Below, piece by piece: positions 1 to 22,504 of a stretch of 23,151 bases of DNA. The position numbers were made by a program, and so were the translations under genes. Source of the DNA: a virus; IMG/VR virus record IMGVR_UViG_3300027963_000354, positions 1-23,151 of that record. The stretch is one strand, 5' to 3'. How positions within the stretch are numbered: the first letter of the stretch is position 1; every line of letters begins with the position of its first letter. The notes under the pieces are model-generated. The model worked only from the letters and a program-made list of their open reading frames with translations, was not told the DNA's origin and made no database searches.

Positions 1-1026
1 CCTACGGGTGTAACTGGTTCAACTGGACCTACAGGTATAACAGGTATAAATTGGCGAGCAGCCTTTGATTTTGTTGAATATAATGTCCGTGATGTAGTTC
101 AGTACAACGGCAGTACATATTTTTGTAACACATTTATTGCAAGCGGGGATATTGCCTCACATATTCCTGGCTCATCTGCAAGGTGGGATTTACTTTCAGG
201 TAAAGGCAATACTGGAGTTACAGGTCAGACTGGTGCTACAGGTATCACTGGAGCAGTAGGTAACACAGGTGCAAACGGTAATACGGGTGCAACTGGAGCA
301 GTTGGTAATACTGGTGCAGTTGGTAATACTGGTGCAGTTGGAAACACGGGTGCAACAGGATTAACTGGGGTTACTGGTGCAACTGGAACAACTGGTTCTC
401 AAGGCACATTATCTGTTGCTACAACAACTCCACCCGCAACTCCTCAAACAGGAGATGCGTGGTATGACTCTGCAAGTGGAAATTTATATGTTTATTATGA
501 TAGTTATTGGGTAGAGGCAGCGAGTGCTAATGATGGGCCTACTGGAAATACAGGATCAACGGGTGCAACTGGACCTACTGGCACTGCAACTTTAAATAGA
601 TACCGTTTTGTAGCCGCAGGCGGTGAGACTGGGGTTTCTGGAGCAGATGCAAACTCAGTAACACTTGCGTATACGGCAGGCTATGAGCAAGTATTTCTTA
701 ATGGAGTTTTACTTGTAAGAGGAACGGATTACACCGCAACTAATGGAACCTCAATTGCTAGCCTTTCAGCTCTGGCTGTTAATGACATTGTTGAGGTACT
801 TGCAATTGGTGCATATAACGTAGCAAACGCAGTTCTTTCAACTACAATTAACGCAAAAGGTGACTTACTTGTAGGTACTGCTGATGACACTATTGGTAGA
901 CTTGCGGTAGGAACTAATGGGTATTACTTACAAGCAGATTCCACAGCAGGCACAGGTCTTGCTTGGGGTGCAATAGATACAACATCAAACGCAGACATAA
1001 TAATGACTATTATGGGTGCATACTAA
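1..1026 (+). CDS. Collagen-like tail fibre protein, 5'-truncated
   Basis: The reading frame is open from the left edge to TAA at 1024-1026; 341 residues are visible and the N-terminus is missing. Three collagen-like Gly-X-Y stretches lie at about residues 1-15, 67-135 and 181-195, rich in Thr, Asn and Ala (units such as [12 protein letters not shown]). Residues about 17-66 ([17 protein letters not shown], Tyr/Trp-rich, ending RWDLLSGKG) look like a small CBM5/12-type carbohydrate-binding module between collagen segments. Residues about 217-265 ([16 protein letters not shown]) match a module in the fibre at 3738-5336. The end (about 281-320, [17 protein letters not shown]) is the KGD module shared with three fibre genes downstream. 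It probably forms a trimeric fibre that binds a surface glycan. Role is inferred from modules; exact family unknown. Confidence 0.85.
298..351 (+). repeat. Tandem 18-bp repeat in collagen-like coding region
   Basis: Three consecutive 18-base units begin GCAGTTGGTAATACTGGT. The first two are identical and the third has three changes. They encode repeated AVGNTG and are in frame, so slippage would lengthen or shorten the collagen-like rod without breaking the gene. Confidence 0.85.
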
Positions 1027-1044
1027 GAGAAAAGGTAGTAACTA

Positions 1045-1347
1045 ATGGCTACAGTATCAAAGGCGCTCTTTCGTGGAGCAGCAGCAACATCAAGCACAAC
1101 CCTATACACAGTCCCTGCATCAACTACAGCAGTAGTGACTAATATACTAGTAACTAATACTGCTGCAGGGGCTGCCACATTTCGCATATTATTAGACGAT
1201 GTTCAAGTTGCTAGTGATATAGCAATTGCAGCAAATGATACAATTACTATTGACCTTAAACAGGTACTTGCTACAACTAAAACAATTAAAGGTTTAGCAT
1301 CTGCAACTACAGTTAATTTTCATATTTCAGGAGTGGAGATAGCCTAA
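1045..1347 (+). CDS. Small virion/tail-associated protein, 100 aa
   Basis: A 100-residue Thr/Ala/Val-rich protein with alternating strand-like segments (YTVPASTTAVVTNILVTN, TFRILLDDVQVA) suggesting a small beta-sandwich. It has no membrane segment or catalytic motif. A purine-rich AGAAAAGG precedes the ATG. Its TAA overlaps the ATG of the next gene by one base (TAATG), so the two are probably translationally coupled. It lies between a collagen-like fibre and a glycine-rich adhesin-like protein, so a head-fibre, tail-fibre or baseplate-decoration role is inferred. No specific family is recognised. Confidence 0.75.
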   Translation: MATVSKALFRGAAATSSTTLYTVPASTTAVVTNILVTNTAAGAATFRILLDDVQVASDIAIAANDTITIDLKQVLATTKTIKGLASATTVNFHISGVEIA

Positions 1348-2225
1348 TGGCTGTACGCAGTATTAAAGGTTCAGGTTTAAAAAATTTAAATATAAGAACT
1401 ACTGTTTGGGACCAAACTGCATCAACTTCTATTACAGCGCAAGTTTTATTAGTTGGCGGTGGTGGTTCTGCCGTTAATCGTCACGGTGGTGGCGGTGCTG
1501 GTGGTGGTTATATTGCACACCCATCGTTTACTTTAAGGTCTGGAGATACAAATACTATTGTTGTAGGTTCTGGTGCTCCACCAAACTCAGGTGATTCTGG
1601 AAATATGGCAAATGGTGTTAATAGTACTCTTACTAATAGTCAAATTACACTAACTGCTTTAGGTGGCGGTTCAGGTGGAAACAATTCTTCTGGTTGGGGT
1701 GGTAAAGATGGTGGTTCTGGCGGTGGTGGTTCTGCAACTTATGGCGCTATAAAAGGATACGCTTTACAACCTAGTCAATCTGGAGACTCTGGAACTTATG
1801 GATTTGGAAGTGATGGCGGTAATGCAAGTGGTGACGCTGGTGGCGGTGGAGGTGGCGCAGGCGGCGGAGGTGGTAACGCTGGTAGTTCTACTTCAACTGG
1901 CGGCGGTGGTGCAGGAAAAACTTGGTTAAATGGAACAACTTATGCTGGTGGTGGATGTGGTGCTGGTAGAAGCAATCATAGCATTGGCAGTGGTGGAGCA
2001 GGTGGTGGCGGAAGTTATGGTTCTGCTGGTACTGCAAATACTGGCGGTGGTGGCGGTGGTGGCAATGATACCAGCAATAATGGTGGTGCTGGTGGTTCTG
2101 GTATTTGCATTATTCGTATGCCAGATACTAATTCTGCTAGTTCAACAACTGGTTCTCCAACCGTAACAACTGCAGGTGGATACCGTTATTATACATTTAC
2201 TGGAAGTGGGAGTCTTACATACTAA
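1347..2225 (+). CDS. Glycine-rich tail adhesin-like protein, 292 aa
   Basis: Long poly-Gly tracts (for example GGGGGGAGGGGG) alternate with short polar loops across roughly residues 36-255, followed by GGSGICIIRMP and a C-terminal GGYRYYTFTGSGSLTY. This layout is typical of Gly_rich-type phage and bacterial surface proteins and recalls the polyglycine-sandwich receptor-binding tip of T-even-like gp38 adhesins, where the loops between glycine strands set receptor specificity. The gene is coupled at both ends by TAATG overlaps (1347 and 2225). One cysteine pair candidate is present (GGGCGAG and GICII). A receptor-binding role is inferred from family resemblance. Confidence 0.75.
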   Translation: MAVRSIKGSGLKNLNIRTTVWDQTASTSITAQVLLVGGGGSAVNRHGGGGAGGGYIAHPSFTLRSGDTNTIVVGSGAPPNSGDSGNMANGVNSTLTNSQITLTALGGGSGGNNSSGWGGKDGGSGGGGSATYGAIKGYALQPSQSGDSGTYGFGSDGGNASGDAGGGGGGAGGGGGNAGSSTSTGGGGAGKTWLNGTTYAGGGCGAGRSNHSIGSGGAGGGGSYGSAGTANTGGGGGGGNDTSNNGGAGGSGICIIRMPDTNSASSTTGSPTVTTAGGYRYYTFTGSGSLTY

Positions 2226-2590
2226 TGGCACACTTTGCGAGATTAAATGAAAATAATATAGTTACTGAAATAATTGTAGTTAATAATAATGAAATATTAT
2301 TTAATGGTGTAGAATCTGAATACAAAGGTACTGTATTTTGTCAATCATTATTTGGTGGCAATTGGAAACAGACTTCCTATAATAGCAATATTCGCAAGAA
2401 CTATGCAGGCATTGGTTATACCTATGATGCCGAAAGAGATGCTTTTATAGCACCTAAACCTTTTAACTCTTGGGTCTTAGATGAGGCTACTTGCCGTTGG
2501 CAAGCACCAACTCCTATGCCTACAACAGCAGGTAAGTTCTACTACTGGTCAGAGGATGACCTATCTTGGAGGGAAATAACCAATGACTAA
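2225..2590 (+). CDS. MAHFA-type small virion-associated protein (copy 1), 121 aa
   Basis: It begins MAHFARLNENNIVTEIIVV and contains a central block RKNYAGIGYTYDAERDAF followed by SWVLDEATCRWQAP. A paralogue at 7386-7754 shares all these blocks. From memory, related proteins are common beside fibre genes in aquatic tailed phages, but no biochemical function is known to me; tail-fibre accessory or assembly protein is a guess. It starts in the TAATG overlap with the glycine-rich gene, and its end overlaps the next gene by 8 bases in another frame. It is soluble, without signal peptide or membrane segment. Confidence 0.8.
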   Translation: MAHFARLNENNIVTEIIVVNNNEILFNGVESEYKGTVFCQSLFGGNWKQTSYNSNIRKNYAGIGYTYDAERDAFIAPKPFNSWVLDEATCRWQAPTPMPTTAGKFYYWSEDDLSWREITND

Positions 2591-3329
2591 AGCAAGAGAC
2601 CTAGCAAACGCAGGTACCGCACTAAGTGCCGTATCAGCAACTGAGTTAGGGTATGTAGATGGTGTTACCTCTGCTATCCAAACACAGATTGATGGCAAAC
2701 AGGCAATTAATGCCAATGTATCTACAACTGAACTTGGATACCTAGATGGAGTAACGTCTTCTATTCAAACACAATTAGATGCTAAGACTGCGAAGGCTAC
2801 CCTTACAACTAAAGGTGATATATATGCAGCAACTGCTGCAGACACAGTTGCTAGATTAGCCGTAGGTGCAAACGGCACAGTCTTAACTGCTGCCTCTGGT
2901 CAGGCAACTGGATTACAGTGGGCTGCTTTGCCTTCATCAAATCCTACAACTGCTGATGCTGCAATTGCAACAAGTCAAACCACTGATTCAAACAGTTACA
3001 CAAACTTAGCAACTGTCGGTCCTGAAGTAACACTTACAACTGGCACAAAAGTTTTAGTTATTATTACTGCAAAATTTAACGATGCTCCAAATAATGGTTC
3101 ATTTATGTCTTATGCAGTTTCAGGCGCAACCACAATTGCAGCACAAAATTCAACTGCACTTTCGTCAGAATTTGCCGCTGACAGCCTAACCTTGAATTTG
3201 CAAATGAGCAGGGCTTCAGTAATTACTGTAAATGCTGGTTCAAATACTTTCACGGCCAAATATAAATCACCTGGCTTTGGAAGTAGAACTTGGTCAAACC
3301 GTGAAATCTTTGTAATGAATCTTAATTAA
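2583..3329 (+). CDS. Tail fibre protein with LGYxDGVTS repeats and KGD module, 248 aa
   Basis: The N-terminus MTKARDLANAGTALSAVSA is a type often found in phage fibres. Two 20-residue repeats follow (residues about 20-39 and 49-68; ELGYVDGVTSAIQTQ and ELGYLDGVTSSIQTQ), probably a trimeric spacer. Residues about 77-114 are the KGD module (TTKGDIYAATAADTVARL, then ATGLQW). The C-terminal 130 residues are strand-rich and likely the receptor-facing domain. The start overlaps the preceding gene by 8 bases. It is followed after 8 bases by a small gene, the first of the fibre plus small-gene pairs. Confidence 0.8.
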   Translation: MTKARDLANAGTALSAVSATELGYVDGVTSAIQTQIDGKQAINANVSTTELGYLDGVTSSIQTQLDAKTAKATLTTKGDIYAATAADTVARLAVGANGTVLTAASGQATGLQWAALPSSNPTTADAAIATSQTTDSNSYTNLATVGPEVTLTTGTKVLVIITAKFNDAPNNGSFMSYAVSGATTIAAQNSTALSSEFAADSLTLNLQMSRASVITVNAGSNTFTAKYKSPGFGSRTWSNREIFVMNLN

Positions 3330-3337
3330 GGAGAAAA

Positions 3338-3598
3338 ATGGCAACTACATCAAAGGAAATTAATTTAAGTCAATTAAGCCGTGAGTTGGGTGATAAAGGT
3401 TTAATCGCAGATTTTAATAATCCACAAGAAAAACTTATATTACCTGCTGATGGTGTTGAGTTAACTGAAATAGAATTAGAATCTGCTATTGCTGCTCACG
3501 TTGCTATTGATGAAGAAGCAATAAGAGCAACTGCCAAGGCAGCCGTTCTAGCACAGTTGGGTATTACAGAAGAGCAGGCAAAACTTTTACTTTCTTAA
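3338..3598 (+). CDS. Small fibre-trailing protein, 86 aa
   Basis: A well-placed AAGGAG lies just before the ATG. The C-terminus (AKAAVLAQLGITEEQAKLLLS) matches the C-termini of the small proteins at 6208-6423 (RQAVLDRLGLTAEEAQLLLG) and more loosely 7087-7305. The middle is acidic and probably helical (ELTEIELESAIAAHV). Its position directly after a fibre gene, repeated in other pairs here, suggests a chaperone or capping partner of the fibre, comparable in arrangement to tail-fibre assembly proteins. That role is inferred; no sequence match to a characterised chaperone is claimed. Confidence 0.75.
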   Translation: MATTSKEINLSQLSRELGDKGLIADFNNPQEKLILPADGVELTEIELESAIAAHVAIDEEAIRATAKAAVLAQLGITEEQAKLLLS

Positions 3599-3609
3599 GG
3601 AGCACTTTG

Positions 3610-3684
3610 ATGGCAGTAATAATGGATAGACCCCTTTCTAGGGCTATAAATCCTTTAAAATCGCGCCTTAAAAATCAGTTTTAA
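3610..3684 (+). CDS. Possible micro-ORF, 24 aa
   Basis: ATG at 3610 is preceded by TAAGGAG at 7-8 bases spacing and runs to TAA at 3682-3684. The product (MAVIMDRPLSRAINPLKSRL...) is short, basic and has no recognisable motif. It sits in the otherwise gene-free 139 bases between the small gene at 3338 and the fibre at 3738. The ribosome binding site is the main support; it could equally be a decayed gene end. Confidence 0.3.
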   Translation: MAVIMDRPLSRAINPLKSRLKNQF

Positions 3685-3709
3685 ACTATTAACGCAGGTA
3701 ATTACCCAC

Positions 3710-3715
3710 TATAAT
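3710..3715 (+). promoter_or_regulatory. Candidate -10 element before the second collagen-like fibre
   Basis: A perfect TATAAT lies 22 bases before the ATG at 3738 and would start a leader of about 16 bases carrying the strong AGGAGG. No good -35 is visible; TTAACG at 3689-3694 has 15-base spacing. The intergenic position supports it. Compare the candidates at 7349 and 9903. Confidence 0.45.
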
Positions 3716-3737
3716 ACTTAGGTAACTAGGAGGAACC

Positions 3738-5336
3738 ATGCCAGCAATAGATTTTCCTAACTCGCCATCTGTCAACGACACACATACCGTTGGCAATCGT
3801 GTTTGGAAGTGGAATGGCACTGTCTGGGAGGTCGTTCGTTCGACTGTTCCTTATTCAACAGGGGCAACTGGTGCTACGGGTGCAACGGGTAGTACAGGAC
3901 CTACTGGTCAAACGGGTGCTAATGGAAATACAGGGGCAACTGGCAATACAGGGGCAACTGGCAATACAGGTGTTACGGGGCAAACTGGCCCAACAGGAAT
4001 GGCATTTGCACAAACTACTGAACCAGCAAATCCAGTAGATGGTCTTATTTGGGTAGATACAGATGGGGCAGTAGTTGGTCAAGCAGTAACTCGCTGGTCA
4101 AAGGCTCCTACTGGTGGTACAACATCATTAACTGGATTAGATGATAGTTCAGTTACATTAAGTTACACAGCAGGATATGAGCAGGTATACCGAAACGGTA
4201 CGCTTTTATCTCGTGGCAATGATTACACGGCAACAAATGGCACATCTATCACCTTAATTGATGCAACTCTTACGGGCGATATCATTGAGGTAATTGGTAG
4301 TGCAGTACTTGCTATTGCAGATGTTTACACACAGGCTCAAGTTAACAGCGGTTTTATTCCACAAACTACAAACTTCTTTGCTGGTAAGAATAAAATCATT
4401 AATGGTGACTTTGGTGTATGGCAAAGAGGTACTTCTATAGCAGGAACTGGGTCAGAAACATTTTCTGCTGACCGATTCCTATGGATAGGCGATGGTTCAG
4501 GTGGTACTCGTACATTTAGTCGTCAGACTATGGGATATGGAGATATTGCAGGATATGAATACCCATACTTTTTCCGATTCAATCAAAGCGTTGCTGGAAC
4601 TGGTGCAAGTTACAATTACATTTGCCAAAGAATTGAAAACGCAAACACATTTGCTGGTCAAACTGTAACATTTAGTTTTTGGGCTAAGGCTTCATCAACT
4701 ACAACATTGCCTGCAATCTATGCTCGTCAGCGTTTTGGTTCAGGCGGTTCTTCTGAAACAAGCACAACTGTTGCATCAAGTATTTCAGTTACAACATCTT
4801 GGCAACGATTTACATATTCTTTTACAGTTCCATCTATTGCTGGTAAAACTGTTGGTACTGGTTCATATTTGACTATGGATGTTTACCATCCAATTAACTC
4901 TACTTTTACAGTAGATACTTTTGGCTGGCAACTAGAAGCAGGTTCAACAGCAACAGCCTTCCAAACTGCAACAGGAACTGTTCAAGGCGAGTTAGCCGCT
5001 TGTCAAAGGTATTACAACAGATACACGGCTACTGGTGTTTATTCATCTTTTGCAAGTTCGGCCTTCGCTCAAAGTACAACAGCGGGAACTGGTTTATTTG
5101 CTTTTCCAATAGAAATGCGAATTGCTCCAACAGCAATAGATAGTTCGACTTTGGCTTTTAGCAAATGGGATAATACTCATTATGCAATGAGTTCAGTGAC
5201 TTTAGACTCAGCAACAACTAGCACAAAAAATGCTTATGTATATGGAACAGGGTCTGGTATGACTGCTGGAAATATCGGCTATTTTGGCGCAAACAATTCA
5301 GCATCGGCTTACATCGGATTTAGTGCGGAGTTATAA
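3738..5336 (+). CDS. Collagen-like tail fibre protein, 532 aa
   Basis: Domains in order: an N-terminal attachment-like segment (residues 1-35, [20 protein letters not shown]...), a collagen-like rod (about 41-87, [20 protein letters not shown] and onward, Thr/Asn in the Y position), a module at about 134-188 ([16 protein letters not shown]) shared with the fibre at 1-1026, and from about 217 a long strand-rich C-terminal region starting [14 protein letters not shown], a motif common at the start of phage receptor-binding or jelly-roll carbohydrate-binding domains. The ATG follows a strong AGGAGG and an upstream TATAAT. It is followed within 3 bases by a tiny gene. It is probably a trimeric host-recognition fibre. 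Confidence 0.88.
3924..3977 (+). repeat. Tandem 18-bp repeat in collagen-like rod
   Basis: Three in-frame 18-base units of the form GGCAATACAGGGGCAACT encode [18 protein letters not shown]. They are of the same unit size and coding as the repeat at 298-351 but with different codons, so the two rods appear to have expanded separately or diverged after copying. Confidence 0.85.
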
Positions 5337-5338
5337 AA

Positions 5339-5488
5339 ATGGATAATGTATCTTTTATTAAAGTTTTAGAATCAGACGGTGTTGAAAGAGAACACGCCAT
5401 TATTGACCACGGCAACGAGCAATTTACCTCAATGCTTAAATCAACTTATGATGAAATGATTGCTCAACAACTACTAGGAGGCAACTAA
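5339..5488 (+). CDS. Tiny fibre-trailing protein, 49 aa
   Basis: ATG at 5339 to TAA at 5486-5488; the product begins MDNVSFIKVLESDGVEREHA and ends AQQLLGGN. The ending is the same as that of the 71-residue protein at 6208-6423 (QLLLGGN). The gene sits 2 bases after the collagen-like fibre, as the other small genes follow their fibres, so it is probably a functional member of the small-gene set. Its last codons contain the AGGAGG used by the fibre gene at 5492. No strong ribosome binding site is seen before its own ATG, so coupling to the upstream fibre is likely. Confidence 0.65.
   Translation: MDNVSFIKVLESDGVEREHAIIDHGNEQFTSMLKSTYDEMIAQQLLGGN
5471..5487 (+). repeat. Cassette-joint repeat, copy 1 (carries RBS)
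   Basis: CTACTAGGAGGCAACTA encodes the C-terminal LLGGN and supplies AGGAGG for the ATG at 5492. It matches copy 2 at 6406-6422 in 16 of 17 positions. Confidence 0.75.
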
Positions 5489-5491
5489 CCA

Positions 5492-6208
5492 ATGGCAACA
5501 ATTAGTAATACCCCTAGACCAGGTTATGTTTATGACTCAACAGATGCTGTTTGGTATCCGATAGGCACTGGTACACACAGTCATAGTGAGATTGCTTCTA
5601 CAATAGTAGATGCTAAAGGGGATCTGATTACTGCTACGGCAGCAGATACCCCTGCTCGTCTTGGAGTAGGTGCTAATAATACAGTCCTTACGGCAGATAG
5701 TGCTGAGGCTACTGGTTTAAAGTGGGCAACACCTGTTGTTGGTGGAAATGTTTCTTGGTCATTGTTATCAACAACTTCTTTAACTGGTTCAAGTGTGTCT
5801 TTGACAGGATTAACCAATAATAATTATTTTGTTTGGTTGCAAGATTGGACAGGTTCATCAGCTGGTCAGGATGTAAGAATTACATTAAATAGCAATACAA
5901 CCGCTGCAAATTATGATGGTTTATATTTATACCCAACTATTTTTCAGGCCCAAAGTTATCGTGAAGCAATTGGTGCTTTTGATATTGGCAATATAAGTAG
6001 CACACAAGCTGGATTTGCTGAAATTAGTTCAGCGCAACAAAGTGGCTATAAAAAAATAAGGGCTTGGACTGCAAAAACTTCTGGAGGAACAGAGTATCAA
6101 GGGACAGAAGGATTTTTCAAAAGTTCTAGCGTTGTTTCAAGCATTCAAATTTTTGTGACTGGTGGAACTTTTTCTGGTGGAACTGCTTACCTATATGGAG
6201 GTTCATAA
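5492..6208 (+). CDS. Tail fibre protein with KGD module, 238 aa
   Basis: The N-terminus (PRPGYVYDSTDAVWYPIG) is a short Trp/Tyr attachment-like motif with a histidine pair (HSHSE). The KGD module follows at about residues 40-80 (AKGDLITATAADTPARLGVG, then EATGLKWATP). The C-terminal part is strand-rich and ends GGTAYLYGGS, resembling the ends of the proteins at 6423, 8042, 8608 and 9136, so it belongs to that receptor-facing domain family. The stop and the next ATG overlap by one base. Its ribosome binding site lies in the last codons of the preceding gene. Confidence 0.8.
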   Translation: MATISNTPRPGYVYDSTDAVWYPIGTGTHSHSEIASTIVDAKGDLITATAADTPARLGVGANNTVLTADSAEATGLKWATPVVGGNVSWSLLSTTSLTGSSVSLTGLTNNNYFVWLQDWTGSSAGQDVRITLNSNTTAANYDGLYLYPTIFQAQSYREAIGAFDIGNISSTQAGFAEISSAQQSGYKKIRAWTAKTSGGTEYQGTEGFFKSSSVVSSIQIFVTGGTFSGGTAYLYGGS

Positions 6209-6423
6209 TGACAAATCCAATAATTAAAATTGTTGATGTTTTAACTGGTGAGGAAATTGAACGGCCAATGAACAAAGATGAATTTGATGCTTACAAATTA
6301 GCAAGTTATGTAGATCCGCAAATTGCTGTTGAAGCACAAGCAAAAGCAACTGCACGACAAGCAGTTCTTGATCGTCTTGGTTTAACTGCCGAGGAAGCAC
6401 AACTACTACTAGGAGGTAACTAA
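6208..6423 (+). CDS. Small fibre-trailing protein, 71 aa
   Basis: It begins MTNPIIKIVDVLTGEEIERP, passes through an Ala/Gln-rich, helix-prone segment and ends ARQAVLDRLGLTAEEAQLLL plus GGN. Its N-terminus pairs with that of the 72-residue protein at 7087 (MTKPIVRIHNIETDEVIDRE), and its C-terminus with 3338 and 5339. It begins in a one-base stop/start overlap with the fibre at 5492. Proteins of this design (beta N-terminus, helical middle, L.LTaEEa end) often follow fibre genes and are usually called tail-fibre assembly-like; the role is inferred. Confidence 0.75.
   Translation: MTNPIIKIVDVLTGEEIERPMNKDEFDAYKLASYVDPQIAVEAQAKATARQAVLDRLGLTAEEAQLLLGGN
6406..6422 (+). repeat. Cassette-joint repeat, copy 2 (carries RBS)
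   Basis: CTACTAGGAGGTAACTA encodes the end of the 71-residue protein and provides AGGAGG six bases before the ATG at 6423. It differs from copy 1 at 5471-5487 by one base. Confidence 0.75.
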
Positions 6424-7085
6424 TGGCTATAACTAAGGCCTCAAGTAATGCAGTTGCACCGGCAGCCAAGGGAGATCTAGTTGTAGGTAGTGCTACTAAT
6501 GACTCTGGTGTTCTTGCGGTAGGAAGCACTGACCAAGTATTAACAGTTGATTCAACTACTGCTACTGGTTTGAAGTGGGCAACTCCTGCTGCTGGTGGTA
6601 TGACTTTATTATCAACTACAACTCTTTCAGGTGCAACAACAACTATTTCATCAATAAGTGGTTCATACAATACTTTGTTTGGAATTGTAACAGGTATGAC
6701 AAATGCAACAGGAAATGGTCAATATAGAATTGCACCAAATGGTTCTACAACTACTTCATTTAATATACATGTTGGCAATGCAGTGACTCCAACATGGCAA
6801 TCCACAACCGCTTCTTATTTAATGATAAGCACTGGGGGTGGCGAAGCGCCAGACCGCACAAGTGCTTCAAATGCCATTGCTTTCACCATTAACAACTATA
6901 CAAGCACAACTGCACACAAACCATTTCAGGTATATGGTTATTACAATGTAAGCAATAGTGCAAGCGACCAAGCATTTACATGTTTTGGTGGCATTCAAAC
7001 AACTTCTGCAATAACATCACTTGTATTTTCAAATGATGGTGGGAATTTATCAACAGGCACAGTCCTACTTTACGGGGTGAAATAA
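6423..7085 (+). CDS. Tail fibre protein with KGD module, 220 aa
   Basis: A short N-terminal segment leads directly into the KGD module (about residues 16-57, AKGDLVVGSATNDSGVLAVG and TATGLKWATP). A strand-rich C-terminal domain ends SAITSLVFSNDGG...GTVLLYGVK. The last part shares a 21-base identical stretch (7001-7021) with the gene at 9136 (9561-9581), so the receptor-facing domain has been copied or exchanged between them. It is directly followed by the small gene at 7087. Confidence 0.8.
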   Translation: MAITKASSNAVAPAAKGDLVVGSATNDSGVLAVGSTDQVLTVDSTTATGLKWATPAAGGMTLLSTTTLSGATTTISSISGSYNTLFGIVTGMTNATGNGQYRIAPNGSTTTSFNIHVGNAVTPTWQSTTASYLMISTGGGEAPDRTSASNAIAFTINNYTSTTAHKPFQVYGYYNVSNSASDQAFTCFGGIQTTSAITSLVFSNDGGNLSTGTVLLYGVK

Positions 7086-7086
7086 T

Positions 7087-7305
7087 ATGACAAAACCAAT
7101 AGTAAGAATACATAACATTGAAACTGACGAGGTCATTGATAGAGAGATGGATGATGCTGAGTTTGCTCAATATCAAGCAGACCAAGCAGCACAGGCAATT
7201 GCACAAGCAGAGGCAGAAGCAAAGGCTCAGGCTAAAGCAACTGCCGAAGGCAAGTTAGCCGCACTCGGTTTAACTACTGATGATTTAAGGGCTTTAGGTT
7301 TATAG
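7087..7305 (+). CDS. Small fibre-trailing protein, 72 aa
   Basis: It starts MTKPIVRIHNIETDEVIDRE and has a long Ala/Gln/Glu helix-forming middle (QAAQAIAQAEAEAKAQAKAT), likely coiled-coil, ending KLAALGLTTDDLRALGL. It is paralogous to the product of 6208-6423 in both termini. The ATG follows the fibre stop by one base. A weak terminator-like hairpin comes directly after the stop. A fibre-partner role is inferred from the repeated pairing. Confidence 0.75.
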   Translation: MTKPIVRIHNIETDEVIDREMDDAEFAQYQADQAAQAIAQAEAEAKAQAKATAEGKLAALGLTTDDLRALGL

Positions 7306-7306
7306 C

Positions 7307-7327
7307 ACAATCTTGAGGGATTGTTTT
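7307..7327 (+). terminator. Weak intrinsic terminator candidate
   Basis: A perfect 6-base inverted repeat ACAATC/GATTGT with the loop TTGAGG is followed by TTT. The stem is short and AT-rich, but its place between a gene end and the promoter candidate at 7349 fits. Confidence 0.4.
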
Positions 7328-7348
7328 AAAGAGAACTTTAATCAGGCG

Positions 7349-7357
7349 TGGTATAAT
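7349..7357 (+). promoter_or_regulatory. Extended -10 promoter candidate
   Basis: TGGTATAAT is a complete extended -10 (TGn plus TATAAT) followed by TAG. It lies in an 80-base intergenic stretch after a terminator-like hairpin. Start of transcription near 7364 would give a leader of about 22 bases with AAGGAG before the ATG at 7386. The same TGGTATARTTAG core recurs at 9903. Confidence 0.55.
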
Positions 7358-7385
7358 TAGTATCAGAAATAAGGAGAAAAAAAAT

Positions 7386-7754
7386 ATGGCACATTTTGCC
7401 GAAATAGATGAGAGCAATACAGTAGTACGTGTACTTGTTGTTCCAGATGCTCAAGAAGGTCGGGGTCAAGAGTATCTAGCCGATGACTTAGGTCTAGGTG
7501 GGACTTGGAAGAAGACTTCCTACAACACACAAGGTGGAGTTCACGCTTTAGGTGGAACACCATATCGCAAGAATTATGCAGGAATTGGTTATACATTTGA
7601 CGCCGTAAAAGACGCGTTCATTGCGCCAAAGCCTTACGCTTCATGGGTATTAGATGAAGCAACATGTAATTGGGAAGCTCCCGTTGCAATGCCAACCGAT
7701 GACAAGATGTATCGTTGGGATGAAGAAACAACTAACTGGATAGAGGTAGCATAA
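7386..7754 (+). CDS. MAHFA-type small virion-associated protein (copy 2), 122 aa
   Basis: It begins MAHFAEIDESNTVVRVLVV and carries RKNYAGIGYTFDAVKDAF and SWVLDEATCNWEAP, matching copy 1 at 2225-2590. It differs by an insertion-like segment (TQGGVHALGGTP) before the central block. AAGGAG precedes the ATG and an extended -10 lies upstream. Function is unknown; placement among fibre genes suggests a fibre-associated role. It is followed after 2 bases by a small Ala-rich gene. Confidence 0.8.
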   Translation: MAHFAEIDESNTVVRVLVVPDAQEGRGQEYLADDLGLGGTWKKTSYNTQGGVHALGGTPYRKNYAGIGYTFDAVKDAFIAPKPYASWVLDEATCNWEAPVAMPTDDKMYRWDEETTNWIEVA

Positions 7755-7756
7755 AC

Positions 7757-7993
7757 ATGTCTGAAGCACCAACAAAGGTAGTAGTAGATTGCTCAACTGG
7801 AGAGACACAAATTATCCCGTTGACGGCTGAAGAAATTTCACAACGCGAGGCAGATGCAGCAGCGTATGCAACTGCACAGGCTGAGCGCGAAGCGGCAGAG
7901 GCTGCAACAGCAGCATTAAAAGCATCTGCTAGAACAAAGCTAATCGCTGGAACTCCTCTAACAGAGGCAGAAGCGGCTGTACTAGTAATTTAG
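7757..7993 (+). CDS. Small fibre-trailing protein, 78 aa
   Basis: The N-terminus (APTKVVVDCSTGETQIIPLT) includes the TGE turn seen in other small partners here. The middle is an Ala/Glu-rich helix (AYATAQAEREAAEAATAA) and the end LTEAEAAVLVI resembles the LTaEEa endings of the genes at 3338 and 6208. It is the most diverged member of the set and follows a MAHFA-type gene rather than a long fibre. It is probably a small helical assembly partner; this is inferred. No clear ribosome binding site precedes it, so coupling to 7386-7754 is likely. Confidence 0.75.
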   Translation: MSEAPTKVVVDCSTGETQIIPLTAEEISQREADAAAYATAQAEREAAEAATAALKASARTKLIAGTPLTEAEAAVLVI

Positions 7994-8041
7994 TTTTTTG
8001 TTACATCAAAGCAAGATAAGTATTAAAGACTGGAGGCTACT

Positions 8042-8608
8042 ATGCCAATATTAGGAACGGTAGCCTCTCAGTTTGCAGGAAAACCTTTTAGCTCGTTTGA
8101 ATCTATTGCAACTCTTACTGGTAATGGTTCATCAGGCGTATTAAACTTTACTAATATTCCACAAACCTACACGCATTTACAAATAAGAGCGTTTGCTAGA
8201 AATAGTGCTGGGGCAAATCTTGACAACTTTTATGTAAATTTTAATGAGGTTTATGCCACAAACTCATACGCAACACACTGGATTTATGGGTATGGTGGTG
8301 CTATTGCTTCTCAACAGGTTGCCCCTTGGACATTATCTTTAGGTGGATTTTTAACAGCAGGTACTGGTGAACCCAATGCAAATGGTGGCGCAATAGTATT
8401 AGATATTTTAGATTACACAAACACAAATAAAAACACTACATTTAAATCATTAAATAGTTTTAATGCAAACAATCAAACATATAGTGGCGTAGCAGTAGCG
8501 TCAGGTGTATTTTTAAATACTGCGGCAATAACAAATATAAGGTTGGCTTGCTCCAATTCATTTGCAACAACTACGCAATTTGCGCTTTATGGAATTAAGG
8601 GAGCATAA
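8042..8608 (+). CDS. Tail fibre/receptor-binding domain protein, paralogue 1, 188 aa
   Basis: First of three consecutive paralogues. It shares the N-terminal theme ESIATLTGNGSSGVLNFTNI, the block IPQTYTHLQIRAFARN and the end FALYGIKGA with the proteins at 8608 and 9136. It is all-beta by appearance and lacks the collagen rod or KGD module, so it is essentially a free-standing tip domain. TGGAGG precedes the ATG; a one-base TAATG overlap joins it to the next gene. Probably a minor tail or receptor-binding protein. Confidence 0.75.
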   Translation: MPILGTVASQFAGKPFSSFESIATLTGNGSSGVLNFTNIPQTYTHLQIRAFARNSAGANLDNFYVNFNEVYATNSYATHWIYGYGGAIASQQVAPWTLSLGGFLTAGTGEPNANGGAIVLDILDYTNTNKNTTFKSLNSFNANNQTYSGVAVASGVFLNTAAITNIRLACSNSFATTTQFALYGIKGA

Positions 8609-9135
8609 TGGCAAGTACATACGAACCAATAGGAACATCTACAGTTAGTAATGCTACAACTTCTACTTTTACATTCAGTAGCATTCCAGCGACATATACT
8701 GACCTTGTTGTTATCCTAAATGGAAACACTGATGGTCCAAGTTCTCCAAAAATGTTTTTTAATAATGAAAATACTGGAACTAATTATAGTTGGAATGGTG
8801 TAGTAGGCAGAACAGTAGTAGTTGCTACGGGGGATGTAAATACTAATCAACTTTACATTGGCGGCTATCAAAACTATTGGCCTAATAGCGCTACTGAAAG
8901 AGCGACTGCTTATATTCATATTATGAATTATGCAAATACATCAACATATAAGTCTTATGTAAGTCGAGATTCTGATTCTTACGATGTTGGTAGTCAAATA
9001 GGCGAAGTCGGGCTTTATGGTGGCATGTGGCGCAGCACAGCCGCAGTAAATAGAATTGATATATGGACAGGTTATGCACTTTATTACTTTAGAGCAGGAA
9101 CAACTGCAACTATTTACGGAATAAAGGCGGCATAG
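8608..9135 (+). CDS. Tail fibre/receptor-binding domain protein, paralogue 2, 175 aa
   Basis: It contains TSTFTFSSIPATYTDLVVIL, a central Tyr/Asn-rich region (TAYIHIMNYANTSTYKSYVS) and the end TATIYGIKAA. The order and spacing of blocks match its neighbours, showing tandem duplication with strong divergence in the middle, the part expected to face the receptor. The stop is immediately followed by the next ATG at 9136. Confidence 0.75.
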   Translation: MASTYEPIGTSTVSNATTSTFTFSSIPATYTDLVVILNGNTDGPSSPKMFFNNENTGTNYSWNGVVGRTVVVATGDVNTNQLYIGGYQNYWPNSATERATAYIHIMNYANTSTYKSYVSRDSDSYDVGSQIGEVGLYGGMWRSTAAVNRIDIWTGYALYYFRAGTTATIYGIKAA

Positions 9136-9654
9136 ATGGCAAATACATATGTATTAATTAGTCCAGTAACTGTAGGCGCAGGTGGCGCGTCCTCAATAGA
9201 GTTTACTTCTATTCCTCAAACTTATACTGATTTATGCGTAGTTCTTTCTACTCGTTTAACTTCAACTGGTGGGGCGCAAGATACAACTTGGCTTAATTCT
9301 ATAAATGGTAATACCAGTTCATTTAAGGACAAAGTTTTAAGAGGTGATGGAAGTTCCGCTTCAATTTTTGTACCTAGTGAAACACCCCTATACATAGGTC
9401 AAAGCCCAACTGCTAGCGGTACTGCTAATACTTTTGCTAGTCATTTTGTTTATATTCCAAATTATACTAGTTCTAATCAAAAATCTATTTCTATTGATAG
9501 CGTTCAAGAAAACAACTCATCAACTGCATATCTGGGATTTACTACGGGATTATGGACACAAACTTCTGCAATAACATCACTGTCTTTTACTACCAATAGT
9601 GGTAATTTTGCTCAATACTCAACCGCTTATCTATATGGAATATCTAACGCTTAA
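9136..9654 (+). CDS. Tail fibre/receptor-binding domain protein, paralogue 3, 172 aa
   Basis: It contains SSIEFTSIPQTYTDLCVVLS, the block HFVYIPNYTSSNQKSISIDS and the end TAYLYGISNA. It is the third copy of the module at 8042 and 8608. A 21-base stretch (9561-9581) is identical to 7001-7021 in the fibre gene at 6423. It has no gap from the preceding gene, so it is probably translated by coupling. It is the last structural gene of the run. Confidence 0.75.
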   Translation: MANTYVLISPVTVGAGGASSIEFTSIPQTYTDLCVVLSTRLTSTGGAQDTTWLNSINGNTSSFKDKVLRGDGSSASIFVPSETPLYIGQSPTASGTANTFASHFVYIPNYTSSNQKSISIDSVQENNSSTAYLGFTTGLWTQTSAITSLSFTTNSGNFAQYSTAYLYGISNA

Positions 9655-14780: not shown

Positions 14781-15305
14781 CTATGAAACTGCTTTTTTAC
14801 GCTTGTTTTTCTTCTTAAGTTTCTCTTTTTTCTTCTCTAACTTGGCTGCTTTATCAATTTTCTCAGCCTTGTATGCCTCTACTGCGTTGGCGCTAGTTCT
14901 ACTTCTCCAAGCAAATCCACACTCGGTACAGGTAACAATCTTTGCTGTAGTCCATCTTCCAGTTGTTGATAGTTTCTCTATAGATGTTTCTAGTTTGCCA
15001 GGTCTTGCGGTACAAAATGGACAGTTGGGATATCTACGGCGTCGAGTCTCTTCTCCAAGATATGAAACTGAAAGAGTCCTGCGAATTTCAATTTCATCTT
15101 TGCCTCCCCATATTCCCCAAATTTGTCTGTGCTCTAGAGCCCACTGTAAACAATCTTTTCTTACAGGGCATGAAAAACATAAATTTTTAGCATCATACTT
15201 TTCAGAAAAATCTTTAGAGAAAAACCAGTCTAAATATTTTTTATTTGATGGTTTGGCGCATAAGGCTTCACTCTGCCATCTGAGGCTTTCTGCTGGTTTC
15301 CACAT
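14781..15305 (-). CDS. WhiB-like protein fused to a zinc ribbon and Lys-rich tail, 174 aa
   Basis: Residues 1-80 are a WhiB domain: C16, then C43-x2-C46-x5-C52 to hold a [4Fe-4S] cluster, and GIWGG (64-68). A second, unusual part follows: RYPNCPFCTARPG (C95, C98) and VTCTECGFAW (C126, C129), a CxxC...CxxC zinc-ribbon arrangement, then a tail from about 147 made almost wholly of Lys, Glu and Ala (KKKEKLKKKNKRKK). Ordinary WhiB proteins are about 80-130 residues and lack these extras. Known family members bind sigma factor and DNA to change transcription. The ribbon and tail may add nucleic-acid binding. It ends 68 bases before the secreted-protein gene. Confidence 0.88.
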   Translation of the reverse strand: MWKPAESLRWQSEALCAKPSNKKYLDWFFSKDFSEKYDAKNLCFSCPVRKDCLQWALEHRQIWGIWGGKDEIEIRRTLSVSYLGEETRRRRYPNCPFCTARPGKLETSIEKLSTTGRWTTAKIVTCTECGFAWRSRTSANAVEAYKAEKIDKAAKLEKKKEKLKKKNKRKKAVS

Positions 15306-16062: not shown

Positions 16063-16341
16063 CTAGATTTGTTTTAAATCTATATTTACAGGAATTCTTT
16101 TATGCTTTCTTATATTAGTTCTTTCTTTAGGGCTTAGTCCTCCCCAAAAACCAAACAGTTCATTTCTAATAGCCCAGTCAGCGCACTCGGCTTTGTGAGG
16201 ACATTGTTTGCATATGGAGCTTGCCATAGCATATGTACTCATTGAATCAATTTTCTTTTCATCTTTATCATCAGTATAAAATATCTCTACACCAACTTCT
16301 GCGCATAACGGTTCTTCAAATTCCCATGGTCCACGAGACAC
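16063..16341 (-). CDS. WhiB-like transcriptional regulator, 92 aa
   Basis: A compact, typical WhiB: C13, then C44-x2-C47-x5-C53 (ICKQCPHKAEC) for the [4Fe-4S] cluster, GFWGG (64-68), and SPKER followed by a basic end (RTNIRKHKRIP) for DNA contact. Its length is normal for the family. The start is GTG, supported by AAAGGAG seven bases upstream; the next ATG would lie within the protein. WhiB proteins act with the main sigma factor, and phage copies can repress host promoters or redirect transcription. It differs clearly from the larger WhiB at 14781-15305. Confidence 0.92.
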   Translation of the reverse strand: MSRGPWEFEEPLCAEVGVEIFYTDDKDEKKIDSMSTYAMASSICKQCPHKAECADWAIRNELFGFWGGLSPKERTNIRKHKRIPVNIDLKQI

Positions 16342-18479: not shown

Positions 18480-18995
18480 TTAGAACGGAGCAGCAGGAGC
18501 AGCAGCAGGTGCTGGCGCTGGTGCAGGAGCAGGTGCTGGCGCTGGTGCAGCAGCAACTGGAGCGGATGCTGCAGAAGTTTGTGCAGTATTTGGGTAGTAG
18601 TTCTTGATTTCATTCTTCTTAGAACCATTCCATGTACGTGTTCCAACTTGAGCACGGAAACGCTTACCAGAAATTATTTGCTCAATTTGAGCATTGGTTG
18701 GCGCTGGTTGCTGTAAGAAGTAATCACGAGGTACACCAAGAGCATGCATCTTCTTGAAAAAGATACCAAGAGCAGCAGGACTATCTGGAGAAACAACTAA
18801 GTTGTCCCAGACAAGACGCTTGTTATGAGCGCCACCTTCAACTTGCGCTTTTACAGAGAACATTGTTTTGCCACTCTGTGTCATTTTATGCGTAGCCTCT
18901 ACGACTACAACATCATAATCACCATCTGGAAGCGGATCATAATTACCTGATTCGCCTGCTTCTTTGATGAGGTCACCCCAATTTAGAGTACTCAT
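18480..18995 (-). CDS. DUF669-type single-stranded-DNA-binding protein, 171 aa
   Basis: The N-terminal 135 residues (NWGDLIKEAGESGNYDPLPD, then GDYDVVVVEATHKMTQSGKT) have the conserved start and OB-fold-like strands of DUF669/phage SSB proteins. Residues about 145-170 are a Pro-Ala repeat (APAPAPAPAP), and the protein ends APF, echoing the conserved Pro-Phe tip of bacterial SSB, though without the acidic residues before it. It lies just downstream of the Sak4-like ATPase with a 3-base gap. It probably coats phage single-stranded DNA during replication and recombination. Confidence 0.8.
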   Translation of the reverse strand: MSTLNWGDLIKEAGESGNYDPLPDGDYDVVVVEATHKMTQSGKTMFSVKAQVEGGAHNKRLVWDNLVVSPDSPAALGIFFKKMHALGVPRDYFLQQPAPTNAQIEQIISGKRFRAQVGTRTWNGSKKNEIKNYYPNTAQTSAASAPVAAAPAPAPAPAPAPAPAAAPAAPF

Positions 18996-18998
18996 TTG

Positions 18999-19778
18999 TT
19001 ATACCTCTTTCTTTTCTTTAGTGGTTTTGTCTTGAGTAGTTTGCTTAGTTCCAAAAATGGTATTAAGCATTACTTCAATTGATAACTTGTCTTGCTCGAC
19101 TATAGAACCTAGACGACCTTGTACTCGCTCGCCAGCCTCATAATCGTTTGTTCTTTCCACATACATACGCCTTACTTTATAAGGAGGCTGTAGTGGATCT
19201 GGATTTGCCATTTGCTCTACTGTCAACGCACCAAGAATGTCGTAAAAATATGGTGCTTGAATTGCTAGTTGACCTTGTAGATACGGACGGTGTCTTCCAT
19301 CCTGGCTTGTTCTTGACATAGCAGTTAGTACAACTGCTTCAAGAGGATTTGTAGCATGCATAGTTAGATCGCGAAGATCACGAAGAAGCCCACCCATGTG
19401 ACGAAGAAGTTCGCCCCACTGTTGCATCTTCATTTGTTCTGTGCCTGCGATGCTATCCATACATTTAACTTGCAGTTCAGATATTGAGTCAATAATTAAA
19501 CTCTTGAACTGATGCTTTCCAAGTTGTAACCACTGATAAACCTTAATAACAGTGTCATAGTCACGAACTGTAACTACAACAGTGTCCCAAGTTCCATCAG
19601 CGATTGGTGGTTCCTCGCGAAGAGGATCCCAATACTTAACAACGATAGGTAGGAATCGGTGCCCACCCTCGACGTCAAGCATGAGTCGTGGGTATGGAGC
19701 AGTTACAGCAAAAGTAGATTTACCTACCTTGCTTTCTCCGTACACCATAACCGTAAGAGAGCGTTGGATCTCACTCAT
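18999..19778 (-). CDS. Sak4-like RecA-fold ATPase, 259 aa
   Basis: Walker A GESKVGKST lies at 14-22 and a Walker-B-like SLIIDSISEL at 93-102. The early LMLDVEGGHRFL and the overall length match phage AAA/RecA-core ATPases of the Sak4 type, which aid single-strand annealing and recombination with a partner SSB. The partner is the next gene downstream. The C-terminal 20 residues are charged (KQTTQDKTTKEKKEV). It starts three bases after the nuclease gene's stop, so all three are probably one operon. Confidence 0.85.
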   Translation of the reverse strand: MSEIQRSLTVMVYGESKVGKSTFAVTAPYPRLMLDVEGGHRFLPIVVKYWDPLREEPPIADGTWDTVVVTVRDYDTVIKVYQWLQLGKHQFKSLIIDSISELQVKCMDSIAGTEQMKMQQWGELLRHMGGLLRDLRDLTMHATNPLEAVVLTAMSRTSQDGRHRPYLQGQLAIQAPYFYDILGALTVEQMANPDPLQPPYKVRRMYVERTNDYEAGERVQGRLGSIVEQDKLSIEVMLNTIFGTKQTTQDKTTKEKKEV

Positions 19779-19781
19779 ACG

Positions 19782-20708
19782 TCACTCGCCTCCTTTTTTG
19801 TCTGTGTCGTAATATGCATAAGGATCAGTCTCCTCATACATTTCACTAAGTGCTTGTTCAGCGGCGCTTCCGTCGTCAAACATTGGGCAGATAGTAAAAA
19901 ATTGGCATTTCCATTTACAGTCACGACTTGGTTTTGGATAAGCATTAAACGCATGGCTCTCACCAGCATCTAACGCCTGTCTTACTCTCATTAAATCTGT
20001 AATCGTTCCGTGAATTCTATTCCAGAAGGAACGTAAAGTAAATATGTTATGGCGAATCTCTACTTGATCATAAAACGGAGGTTTAGCAGCCGCAGTTCTG
20101 CGAACTTTTTTAAGAAGAGTAAATATTCCGCCTTCACTTCTTTCTTTCTCATCTGTCTTAGTAGACTCTAAAAGCATGTATGTCATAACTTGCTCATTCA
20201 TGTGAGCCATATTTGCAAACTCAGACAAAGAGCCTCCTACAGTTTTAAAGTCACGGAACATTCTTACGCCATCGGCTTTGCGACGAACACGCATATCAAG
20301 TTTTCCTTGAAGTTCTACTTCACCATTAAACAATGGAGCAATAATTGTTTCTTCAGTTGAAATCATCTCAAGTTCTGCATCAATACCATTCTCTTCTACC
20401 CATTGCTCATAACCTTCGAGCATGATGCGACCTAACTCTCCTTCTGTTTCAAGGTTAGATACATCTCTAAAATCTTGTAGTAAAAGTTGTTTATCTTGTT
20501 CAATTAATTCAGAGTGCGCAGTTAGTAGAGGAACACCCTTCGCATAGTGAGCATCTAGAGCGGCGTGGATTCTACTTCCCATAGCAAGTGGACCAGTCAT
20601 ATCTTGATGCTTAGGTTTCAATGCACGGTAGTAAGTTAGCCACCAACGACGACGACAATCTTTAAATGTCTGTATTTCCGAGTTAGATAGTCTTATGACT
20701 CCACTCAT
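19782..20708 (-). CDS. RecB/Cas4-like PD-(D/E)XK nuclease with probable Fe-S site, 308 aa
   Basis: Nuclease motifs: GSRIHAALDAHY (44-55, H48), GKLDMRV (135-141, D138), FRDFKTVG (151-158, the D-x-K centre) and a downstream NEQVMTYMLL with the Q-x3-Y motif of the RecB family. Cysteines C18 (KDCRRRW) and C264-x3-C268-x5-C274 (RDCKWKCQFFTICP) place one Cys before and three after the active site, as in AddB and Cas4, so a [4Fe-4S] cluster is likely. It overlaps the helicase by four bases (ATGA). Probable role: 5'/3' exonuclease for recombination or genome processing. Confidence 0.86.
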   Translation of the reverse strand: MSGVIRLSNSEIQTFKDCRRRWWLTYYRALKPKHQDMTGPLAMGSRIHAALDAHYAKGVPLLTAHSELIEQDKQLLLQDFRDVSNLETEGELGRIMLEGYEQWVEENGIDAELEMISTEETIIAPLFNGEVELQGKLDMRVRRKADGVRMFRDFKTVGGSLSEFANMAHMNEQVMTYMLLESTKTDEKERSEGGIFTLLKKVRRTAAAKPPFYDQVEIRHNIFTLRSFWNRIHGTITDLMRVRQALDAGESHAFNAYPKPSRDCKWKCQFFTICPMFDDGSAAEQALSEMYEETDPYAYYDTDKKGGE

Positions 20709-22504
20709 AGGTTTCCTGTCTTATCATCTTGTAGTAGTTTTAGAAGTTGATCTTTATCTTTAACAATTTGTTCAAAGTTATCGGCTTTAGTTTCTAAAAC
20801 TTGGATAACTCTCTCTTCTATAGTTCCTTCCGTAACATAGTCGGTAATTACTATAGAGTCATGTATTTCGCTTCCAATTCTGTGTACGCGATCTAATACT
20901 TGCTTGTAATCAACTAAAGACCAAGGTCTTTGAAGCATTATCAGACGACGAGCAGAAGTTAGTGTAATTCCAACTCCTCCCGCTTGAGCTGTAAACAGAA
21001 TCCATTTTATTGCTCCAGACTGAAAATCGTCAATAGCCTTCTGACGTTCATCTTCATCTTGATCGCCTGTAATTAACCCGTGAGAAATTTTTTTCTTTGT
21101 TAACTCAGCGCTCAGTAGATTAATAAGTTGTTTAGAGACGGCGCTTACCGCTACAGAGTCATCTCCAAAGTCTCCGTTTTCAATATCATCCATCAAAGCA
21201 TCAATTTTGCATGAAGGAGCATCGAGCACTGCTCTAGGCTCACCAGTTACTTCATTGGTGGCAATAGTTGCATAAGAACTAGCAAACTGAAGAAGTCTTA
21301 TTGTTTGAGTTAGAACGCTAGGTGCTGCAAGAGTATCCCCAGACTCAAGTTCAGAGATCATTAAGTCTCTCATCTGCTCGTAGGCTTTTTTCTGTTTAGT
21401 AGACATCTCTACATCTCTACGCTCTTTTAGAACTGGAGGCAGGTTTGGTAGCACAACCTTTTTAAGCATGCGTCTCATGTATGGATTTACGCTCTTATAA
21501 AACTCGTCCTGCATCTGAGGCTTAACTCCTAGAACCATCATTCCACCAAAAGCATTAAGCATTACATCAACCATTCGATCAATCCATTTTGTCTTGCTAG
21601 GCCAGTCCTTTGGAGATATCCAGTGAAGTATTGACCAAAGATCTACAACATTGTTAGCAATAGGTGTTCCAGTTAGTGCAAAGCGAATCTCAGAAGTGCC
21701 AGAGGCAGACCAAAGAGCACGAGATTGTTTTGACTTGGGATCTTTACTTCTATGAATCTCATCTGCAACTACTGCTTTAAATTTAAAGTTGTTTAACTCT
21801 CTTAAATGTACTTCGCAACGATTCTCGCTAATCTTTTCATCTTGACCACCGCAAGCACGGCATCTTGTTAAAGAGATAGATCCATAAGGAGAAAGTCTTG
21901 AATGAGACCGTAAAGATTCCCAGTTGATAATAAAAATTTGCGCTGGTTGTTCAAATTGTTTTTTGCGTTGAACAGCAGATCCTTTAATAACTTGAGTAGT
22001 TACATCTGGCCACCATCTAGCAAACTCTCTTGCCCAGTTATTCTTTAAAGTGTTAGGGCAGACAATAAGAATAGGAAAAACCTCTTCTCCTCTATCGTTT
22101 AACTCTTTTAGGGCTCTAATAGCCTGAGCAGTCTTTCCTAAGCCAGGTTCATCGGCTAGAAGGGCTCTTTTAGCGGTTGCTAGGAAGGCAACTCCTGCTC
22201 TTTGATGAGGGAATAGCACCTCATCGCCTTCATAGGTCTCTAACTCTCTTAAATTATTGGCTGGGGTAATTCTTGTCTCTAATTGATTGGCTGCCCAAGC
22301 GCCTAAAGTAGGCTTTATCTCTAAATCACTGCGGAAAGTGGAGCGTAAGGCTAAACAGGTTGTCCAACTTAGGGGGACTCTCCAAACCTGCTCAGAAGCG
22401 CTCCAGGAGGCTCCTGGGAGGCTTTTACAGAGTTCTTTGTAGCGCCAGTCAGCACTTATAAGGATGTGTTCGCCTTGGGCATCTATATCTACAGATACTG
22501 CCAC
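20705..22504 (-). CDS. SNF2-family DNA helicase/translocase, 599 aa
   Basis: Walker A DEPGLGKT (118-125), motif II ADEIH (247-251), TGTP (278-281), and the C-terminal helicase motifs AGGVGITLTSARRLI and RPWSLVDYKQVLDRVHRIG define a complete two-lobed SNF2 enzyme. The N-terminal 65 residues (WRYKELCKSLPGASWSASEQ, WRVPLSW) resemble the HARP-like domain of SMARCAL1-type annealing helicases. A zinc-knuckle-like insertion (C215, C218, C230, H233) sits before motif II. The start is GTG, supported by AAGGGG. It probably remodels forks or strips proteins from DNA; it overlaps the nuclease by ATGA. Confidence 0.92.
   Translation of the reverse strand: MAVSVDIDAQGEHILISADWRYKELCKSLPGASWSASEQVWRVPLSWTTCLALRSTFRSDLEIKPTLGAWAANQLETRITPANNLRELETYEGDEVLFPHQRAGVAFLATAKRALLADEPGLGKTAQAIRALKELNDRGEEVFPILIVCPNTLKNNWAREFARWWPDVTTQVIKGSAVQRKKQFEQPAQIFIINWESLRSHSRLSPYGSISLTRCRACGGQDEKISENRCEVHLRELNNFKFKAVVADEIHRSKDPKSKQSRALWSASGTSEIRFALTGTPIANNVVDLWSILHWISPKDWPSKTKWIDRMVDVMLNAFGGMMVLGVKPQMQDEFYKSVNPYMRRMLKKVVLPNLPPVLKERRDVEMSTKQKKAYEQMRDLMISELESGDTLAAPSVLTQTIRLLQFASSYATIATNEVTGEPRAVLDAPSCKIDALMDDIENGDFGDDSVAVSAVSKQLINLLSAELTKKKISHGLITGDQDEDERQKAIDDFQSGAIKWILFTAQAGGVGITLTSARRLIMLQRPWSLVDYKQVLDRVHRIGSEIHDSIVITDYVTEGTIEERVIQVLETKADNFEQIVKDKDQLLKLLQDDKTGNL

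Follow-up and report, generated by a model that had tools for sequence, protein, structure and literature searches.

A repeated 17-base gene-end joint in a freshwater phage tail operon is very probably a translational-coupling junction

Intragenic Shine-Dalgarno (SD) sequences in the 3′ end of the upstream gene of overlapping pairs are widespread in archaea and bacteria (Huber et al. 2019, PMC6728339). In mycobacteriophages, about 60 bp is common to the 3′ ends of Island3 genes 67 and 68 (Pope et al. 2011, PMC3029335). Embedded SDs and short shared 3′ ends at mosaic boundaries are already known, and the 17-base joint described here, CTACTAGGAGG[C/T]AACTA, is a further, well-documented case. 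As in termination-reinitiation pairs (PMC6728339), the SD lies within the upstream coding end and the stop and start overlap or nearly do so; here, however, the SD-bearing coding tail comes and goes among relatives with the following gene, at mosaic boundaries, and the coupling is predicted from sequence. Like Island3 67/68 (PMC3029335) and the lambdoid boundary sequences, the joint is a short repeat at small-gene 3′ ends, at a mosaic boundary, and is common to otherwise unrelated C-termini. Unlike them, it spans 17 to 27 nt, is largely explained by ribosome-binding site (RBS) function, and has most recent exchange edges in the flanking coding blocks. No description of the joint was found in the literature searched, which was covered in part.

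The window, meaning the whole stretch of DNA analyzed, is a virus record of 23151 bases from a freshwater phage. Two WhiB-domain proteins encoded on the − strand (14781-15305 and 16063-16341) suggest an actinobacterial host. Positions 1-9654 hold collagen-like, glycine-rich, and fibre-type genes packed densely on the + strand, with small genes interspersed. The features around the joints are as follows.

3338..3598, + strand, paralogous small gene ending EQAKLLLS*, without GGN; SD after the stop
5339..5488, + strand, 49-aa small open reading frame (ORF), MDNVSFIKV...EMIAQQLLGGN*, from the sequence; 80 relatives (L140-L219)
5471..5487, + strand, joint 1, CTACTAGGAGGCAACTA; LLGGN codons and SD for the ATG at 5492
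5476..5481, + strand, SD AGGAGG of joint 1, from the sequence; 10-nt spacer to the ATG at 5492
5492..6208, + strand, fibre-type gene, MATISNTPRPGY...; phrog_38058 tail fibre (E 1.5e-8); ends YGGS* with its own embedded GGAGG
6197..6201, + strand, that GGAGG, SD for the ATG at 6208; arranged as in the joints, with a different sequence
6208..6423, + strand, 71-aa small gene ending AQLLLGGN*; beta hairpin, long helix, short helix, and unstructured LGGN tail
6331..6655 (about), + strand, block common to many relatives; blast edges at 6326-6350 and 6626-6675
6406..6422, + strand, joint 2, CTACTAGGAGGTAACTA; LLGGN codons and SD for the ATG at 6423
6411..6416, + strand, SD AGGAGG of joint 2, from the sequence; 6-nt spacer to the ATG at 6423
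6423..7085, + strand, fibre-type gene, MAITKASSNAVAP...; phrog_32934 and phrog_3030
7087..7305, + strand, paralogous small gene ending DLRALGL*, without GGN; next gene 80 nt away with its own SD
7757..7993, + strand, paralogous small gene ending AAVLVI*, without GGN; next gene 48 nt away with its own SD

Both copies are exact to the degenerate pattern and are built as the original prediction described, each encoding a terminal LLGGN while its AGGAGG is placed to serve the next ATG. They stand 935 nt apart with one cassette between them, and the repeat around them (family D9) reaches 27 nt, 24 of them identical (5462-5488 and 6397-6423). With 3 mismatches allowed, the chance expectation for the pattern is 0.14, and 2 of 100 shuffles gave at least two matches; read backwards, the pattern has no match in the window record. 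Site-specific recombination was also considered as a reading; beyond the collagen-like and glycine-rich coding repeats, the direct repeats in the window are short. Stop and start overlap as TAATG at joint 2 (6421-6425) and nearly so, as TAACCAATG, at joint 1 (5486-5494), and each SD sits within the upstream coding sequence at usable spacing, which is the makeup of an embedded-SD coupled pair. Judged on sequence, an embedded SD with a TAATG or near overlap, as in termination-reinitiation, appears to be the best-supported reading, and we consider the joint very probably a translational-coupling junction at a mosaic gene boundary.

The small proteins at the joints match no family in PHROGs, Pfam, or NCBIfam, and the named phage records hold no useful near DNA relatives of the window, nor any protein related to the product of the 71-aa small gene. 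As modeled by AlphaFold2 (mean pLDDT, 80; last residue, 45), this 71-aa product has a hairpin and two helices, the first long and the second short and reaching residue 67, followed by an unstructured LGGN tail. The small proteins at 6208-6423, 3338-3598, 7087-7305, and 7757-7993 form a mosaic family in which several unrelated N-terminal modules are combined with a few C-terminal types (LLGGN, LLS, ALGL, and ALTK); similarity edges within the gene at 6208-6423 accumulate at about 6331.

The joint also recurs at gene ends in relatives. An exact scan of IMG/VR placed the 17-mer in 57 stretches, and in all but 2 of them (L006 and L010) it encodes the terminal LLGGN of an ORF, with a stop after it and an ATG close by. 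Most carriers are small genes ending LG[IL]TxEEAxxLLGGN; about twenty, in another phage group, are endolysin-like genes ending FFNIPLLGGN. These endolysin-like genes (L004, L008, L104, L268, and others) share the terminal CTACTAGGAGG and have different next genes in different contigs, the sequences diverging after it into unlike followers (L104 and L268 versus L004), so that the group has one embedded RBS for different followers. When the synonymous spellings YTAYTAGGAGGYAACTA were added to the scan, the total rose to 91 stretches; 8 among the 30 new stretches listed belong to the same small-gene family and spell its end with TTACTA or TTATTA, and the Leu codons are therefore free to drift.

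The presence of the tail follows the downstream neighbor rather than the family of the protein. Small proteins in relatives of the window end in LLGGN*, LLGGK*, or LLEGN* when a fibre-type start lies −1 to +3 nt from the stop, and in LLLS*, LLLA*, ALGL*, or AALTK* when the following gene lies farther off or carries an SD of its own; GGN is likewise absent from the paralogues in the window that have no directly coupled gene. Among loci L060-L299, which were collected by tail-less small-protein alignment or by flanking genes and not by the 17-mer, an SD-like sequence falls within the final 15 nt of the small gene at 27 of 30 fibre-adjacent ends versus 1 of 106 others (Fisher p 5e-24; the counts are dereplicated, but the relatives are not independent and the p value ignores kinship). 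Two of the three exceptions look like misclassified non-fibre genes and the third has its SD after the stop, while the sole SD-bearing end among the 106 precedes a truncated fibre gene. In the 49-aa family, the body is kept across the 80 relatives to about STYDEMIAxQ, after which the ends diverge: LLGGN is found only in the near twin of the window, and LGGN in L198 and L200, only before another fibre-type gene. Judged by these ends, the C-terminus of this family is whatever the next gene imposes. The C-terminal codons of L140-L219 often overlap the start of an endolysin-like gene, e.g., ...NEASTL* over ATGAAGCC.... At most of the other close junctions in the window, the 3′ end of the upstream gene likewise contains SD-like purines. 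In a related phage group (TAATGAAG..), overlaps that carry no SD at all are common (50 cases), and an SD is therefore not indispensable to such an arrangement.

The codons of the tail were compared over 31 dereplicated small-gene ends, part of which were collected by the exact 17-mer; this biases the sample towards conservation, so the dips in codon identity are conservative. Synonymous identity is 0.94 at the first Gly (GGA in 30 of 31) and 1.00 at Asn (AAC in 30 of 30), against background frequencies of 0.21 for GGA and 0.23-0.48 for AAC. The Leu codons, at 0.43 and 0.67, behave like the gene body, the second Gly is at 0.50, and the codons upstream of the tail score between 0.37 and 0.94, GAA GCA being a second stretch of high identity. 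Around the joint, codons are thus fixed only at the SD (GGA) and in the leader (AAC). Conservation of the DNA beyond the needs of coding and ribosome binding, as for a boundary sequence, was not found, AAC being the one fixed codon left unexplained. The SD does not account for AAC in 30 of 30, which stays odd; this terminal Asn lies at 5483-5485 and 6418-6420, and elsewhere AAT is at least as common. AACTA precedes the ATG in 41 of 79 coding leaders, and 6 non-coding leaders have it too; it therefore belongs to the start region. Another leader, GGTAGTAACTAATGG, lies between genes in L005, L231, L099, and the window (1034-1048), and in L069 it is translated as the C-terminal codons of the small gene (...GGSN*), an apparent leader capture.

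It had been proposed that LLGGN is selected at the DNA rather than the protein level. For the GGN tail this is borne out by the 27 of 30 versus 1 of 106 association, the fixed codons, and the loss of the tail when the neighbor changes; the tail is set at the DNA level because the SD and leader fix its codons while the Leu codons drift. That LLGGN is instead a conserved protein-level C-terminal signal, e.g., for fibre binding, is suggested by the recurrence of identical residues within a single genome, in two small proteins unrelated to each other, and in endolysin-like proteins of other phages. It is very hard to credit, since the motif is absent from paralogues and relatives whenever the neighbor changes, the tail is unstructured in the AlphaFold2 model, and the codons are fixed at GGA and AAC.

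The coupling-junction reading would work as follows. The upstream small gene ends in the protein motif LG[IL]TxEEAxLL, a predicted short C-terminal helix. Where a fibre-type gene comes directly next, the small-gene frame would run on through the SD and short leader of that gene until readthrough stops at the TAATG or TAACCAATG stop. The RBS would therefore be translated as the GGN tail, and the tail would accordingly be selected as RBS sequence. CTACTA would supply the LL of the upstream motif, AGGAGG the SD, and AACTA(ATG) a leader linked to the downstream gene; the exact 17-mer spelling would recur because LL codons, SD, and leader abut. Neighboring genes have been reassorted around the joint, probably by ordinary phage recombination in the flanking conserved protein-coding blocks, namely, the C-terminal half of the small gene and the N-terminal part of the fibre gene, or alternatively through exchanges with less homology that persist only if the coupling is preserved.

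The original prediction had further proposed that the joint could serve as a short homologous recombination target that keeps swapped cassettes correctly coupled; in its full form, this reading has whole cassettes of fibre and small gene swapped at the joint and its DNA conserved for that reason. Reassortment across the joint stands: the graph of upstream against downstream genes contains at least 4 independent cycles, and change points gather either 5-6 nt ahead of the start or where the stop ends, from which we take reassortment at the junction to be real. These cycles, the presence of the joint at gene boundaries in many relatives, the two copies flanking one cassette at 935 nt, and the pairs L003/L034 and L052/L310, in which about 91-93% identity starts within 1 nt of the 17-mer, all speak for a target. 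The 17-mer as the site of exchange was not supported: of the 129 similarity edges that close relatives (≥90% identity) show near a small-gene joint, only 12 lie within 30 nt of it, with 47 at 61-120 nt upstream and 47 at 90-239 nt downstream, in a count where cluster pairs can enter in both directions. Breakpoints between close relatives thus mostly do not fall on the joint, where those of a boundary sequence should lie. Edge counts around joint 1 were left out as proof because its loci were collected with both flanking genes. At joint 2, the block at about 6331-6655 comprises the C-terminal half of the small gene, the joint in the middle, and the N-terminal part of the next fibre gene.

Tail sharing across 79 dereplicated junctions also weighs against a target. 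The tail is shared in 65% of pairs with a similar upstream and a different downstream gene; with a different upstream and a similar downstream gene it is shared in 15%, no more than the background of 16%. The stop-to-start spacer is shared in 68% of the latter pairs versus 28%. The RBS tail therefore mostly moves together with the upstream gene, and the spacer with the downstream one. Ahead of the downstream block MATISNTPRPG stand many other RBS-bearing tails that do not contain the 17-mer; the 17-mer lies at gene boundaries, yet most reassorted MATISNTPRPG junctions lack it, and the Leu codons inside it drift. The target idea is weakly supported and largely contradicted by these data, and we regard it as improbable. 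Exchange seems to use longer flanking homology, and dual-use gene ends of this kind are an ordinary compact-genome trick, not a dedicated recombination site.

The joint thus reveals no new recombination system. It is a clear natural example of how the conserved C-terminus of a protein can arise as a by-product of the ribosome-binding site of a neighboring gene, and it warns against taking such tails for functional peptides. It also shows a mosaic tail operon that, as we infer, keeps its genes translationally coupled despite changed neighbors. A tentative extension, which we think possible though doubtful, is that, in the tail operons of freshwater phages, C-terminal tails that carry an RBS serve as interchangeable adaptors: the leader of an incoming fibre gene would become the C-terminus of the preceding small gene, as in the apparent leader capture of L069, coupling could be restored between any small gene and any fibre gene, and junctions of this kind would be preferentially retained after recombination.

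Two further features of the window were observed. Genes for DUF669, AAA_24, PD-(D/E)XK nuclease, and SNF2-type helicase proteins lie in a row on the − strand at 18480-22504, of which the nuclease and the AAA_24 protein could be recombination functions. In the + strand run, similar genes beginning MAHFA... lie at 2225-2590 and 7386-7754, the second matching phrog_7759 (E 1.9e-41), an apparent duplication inside the tail operon.
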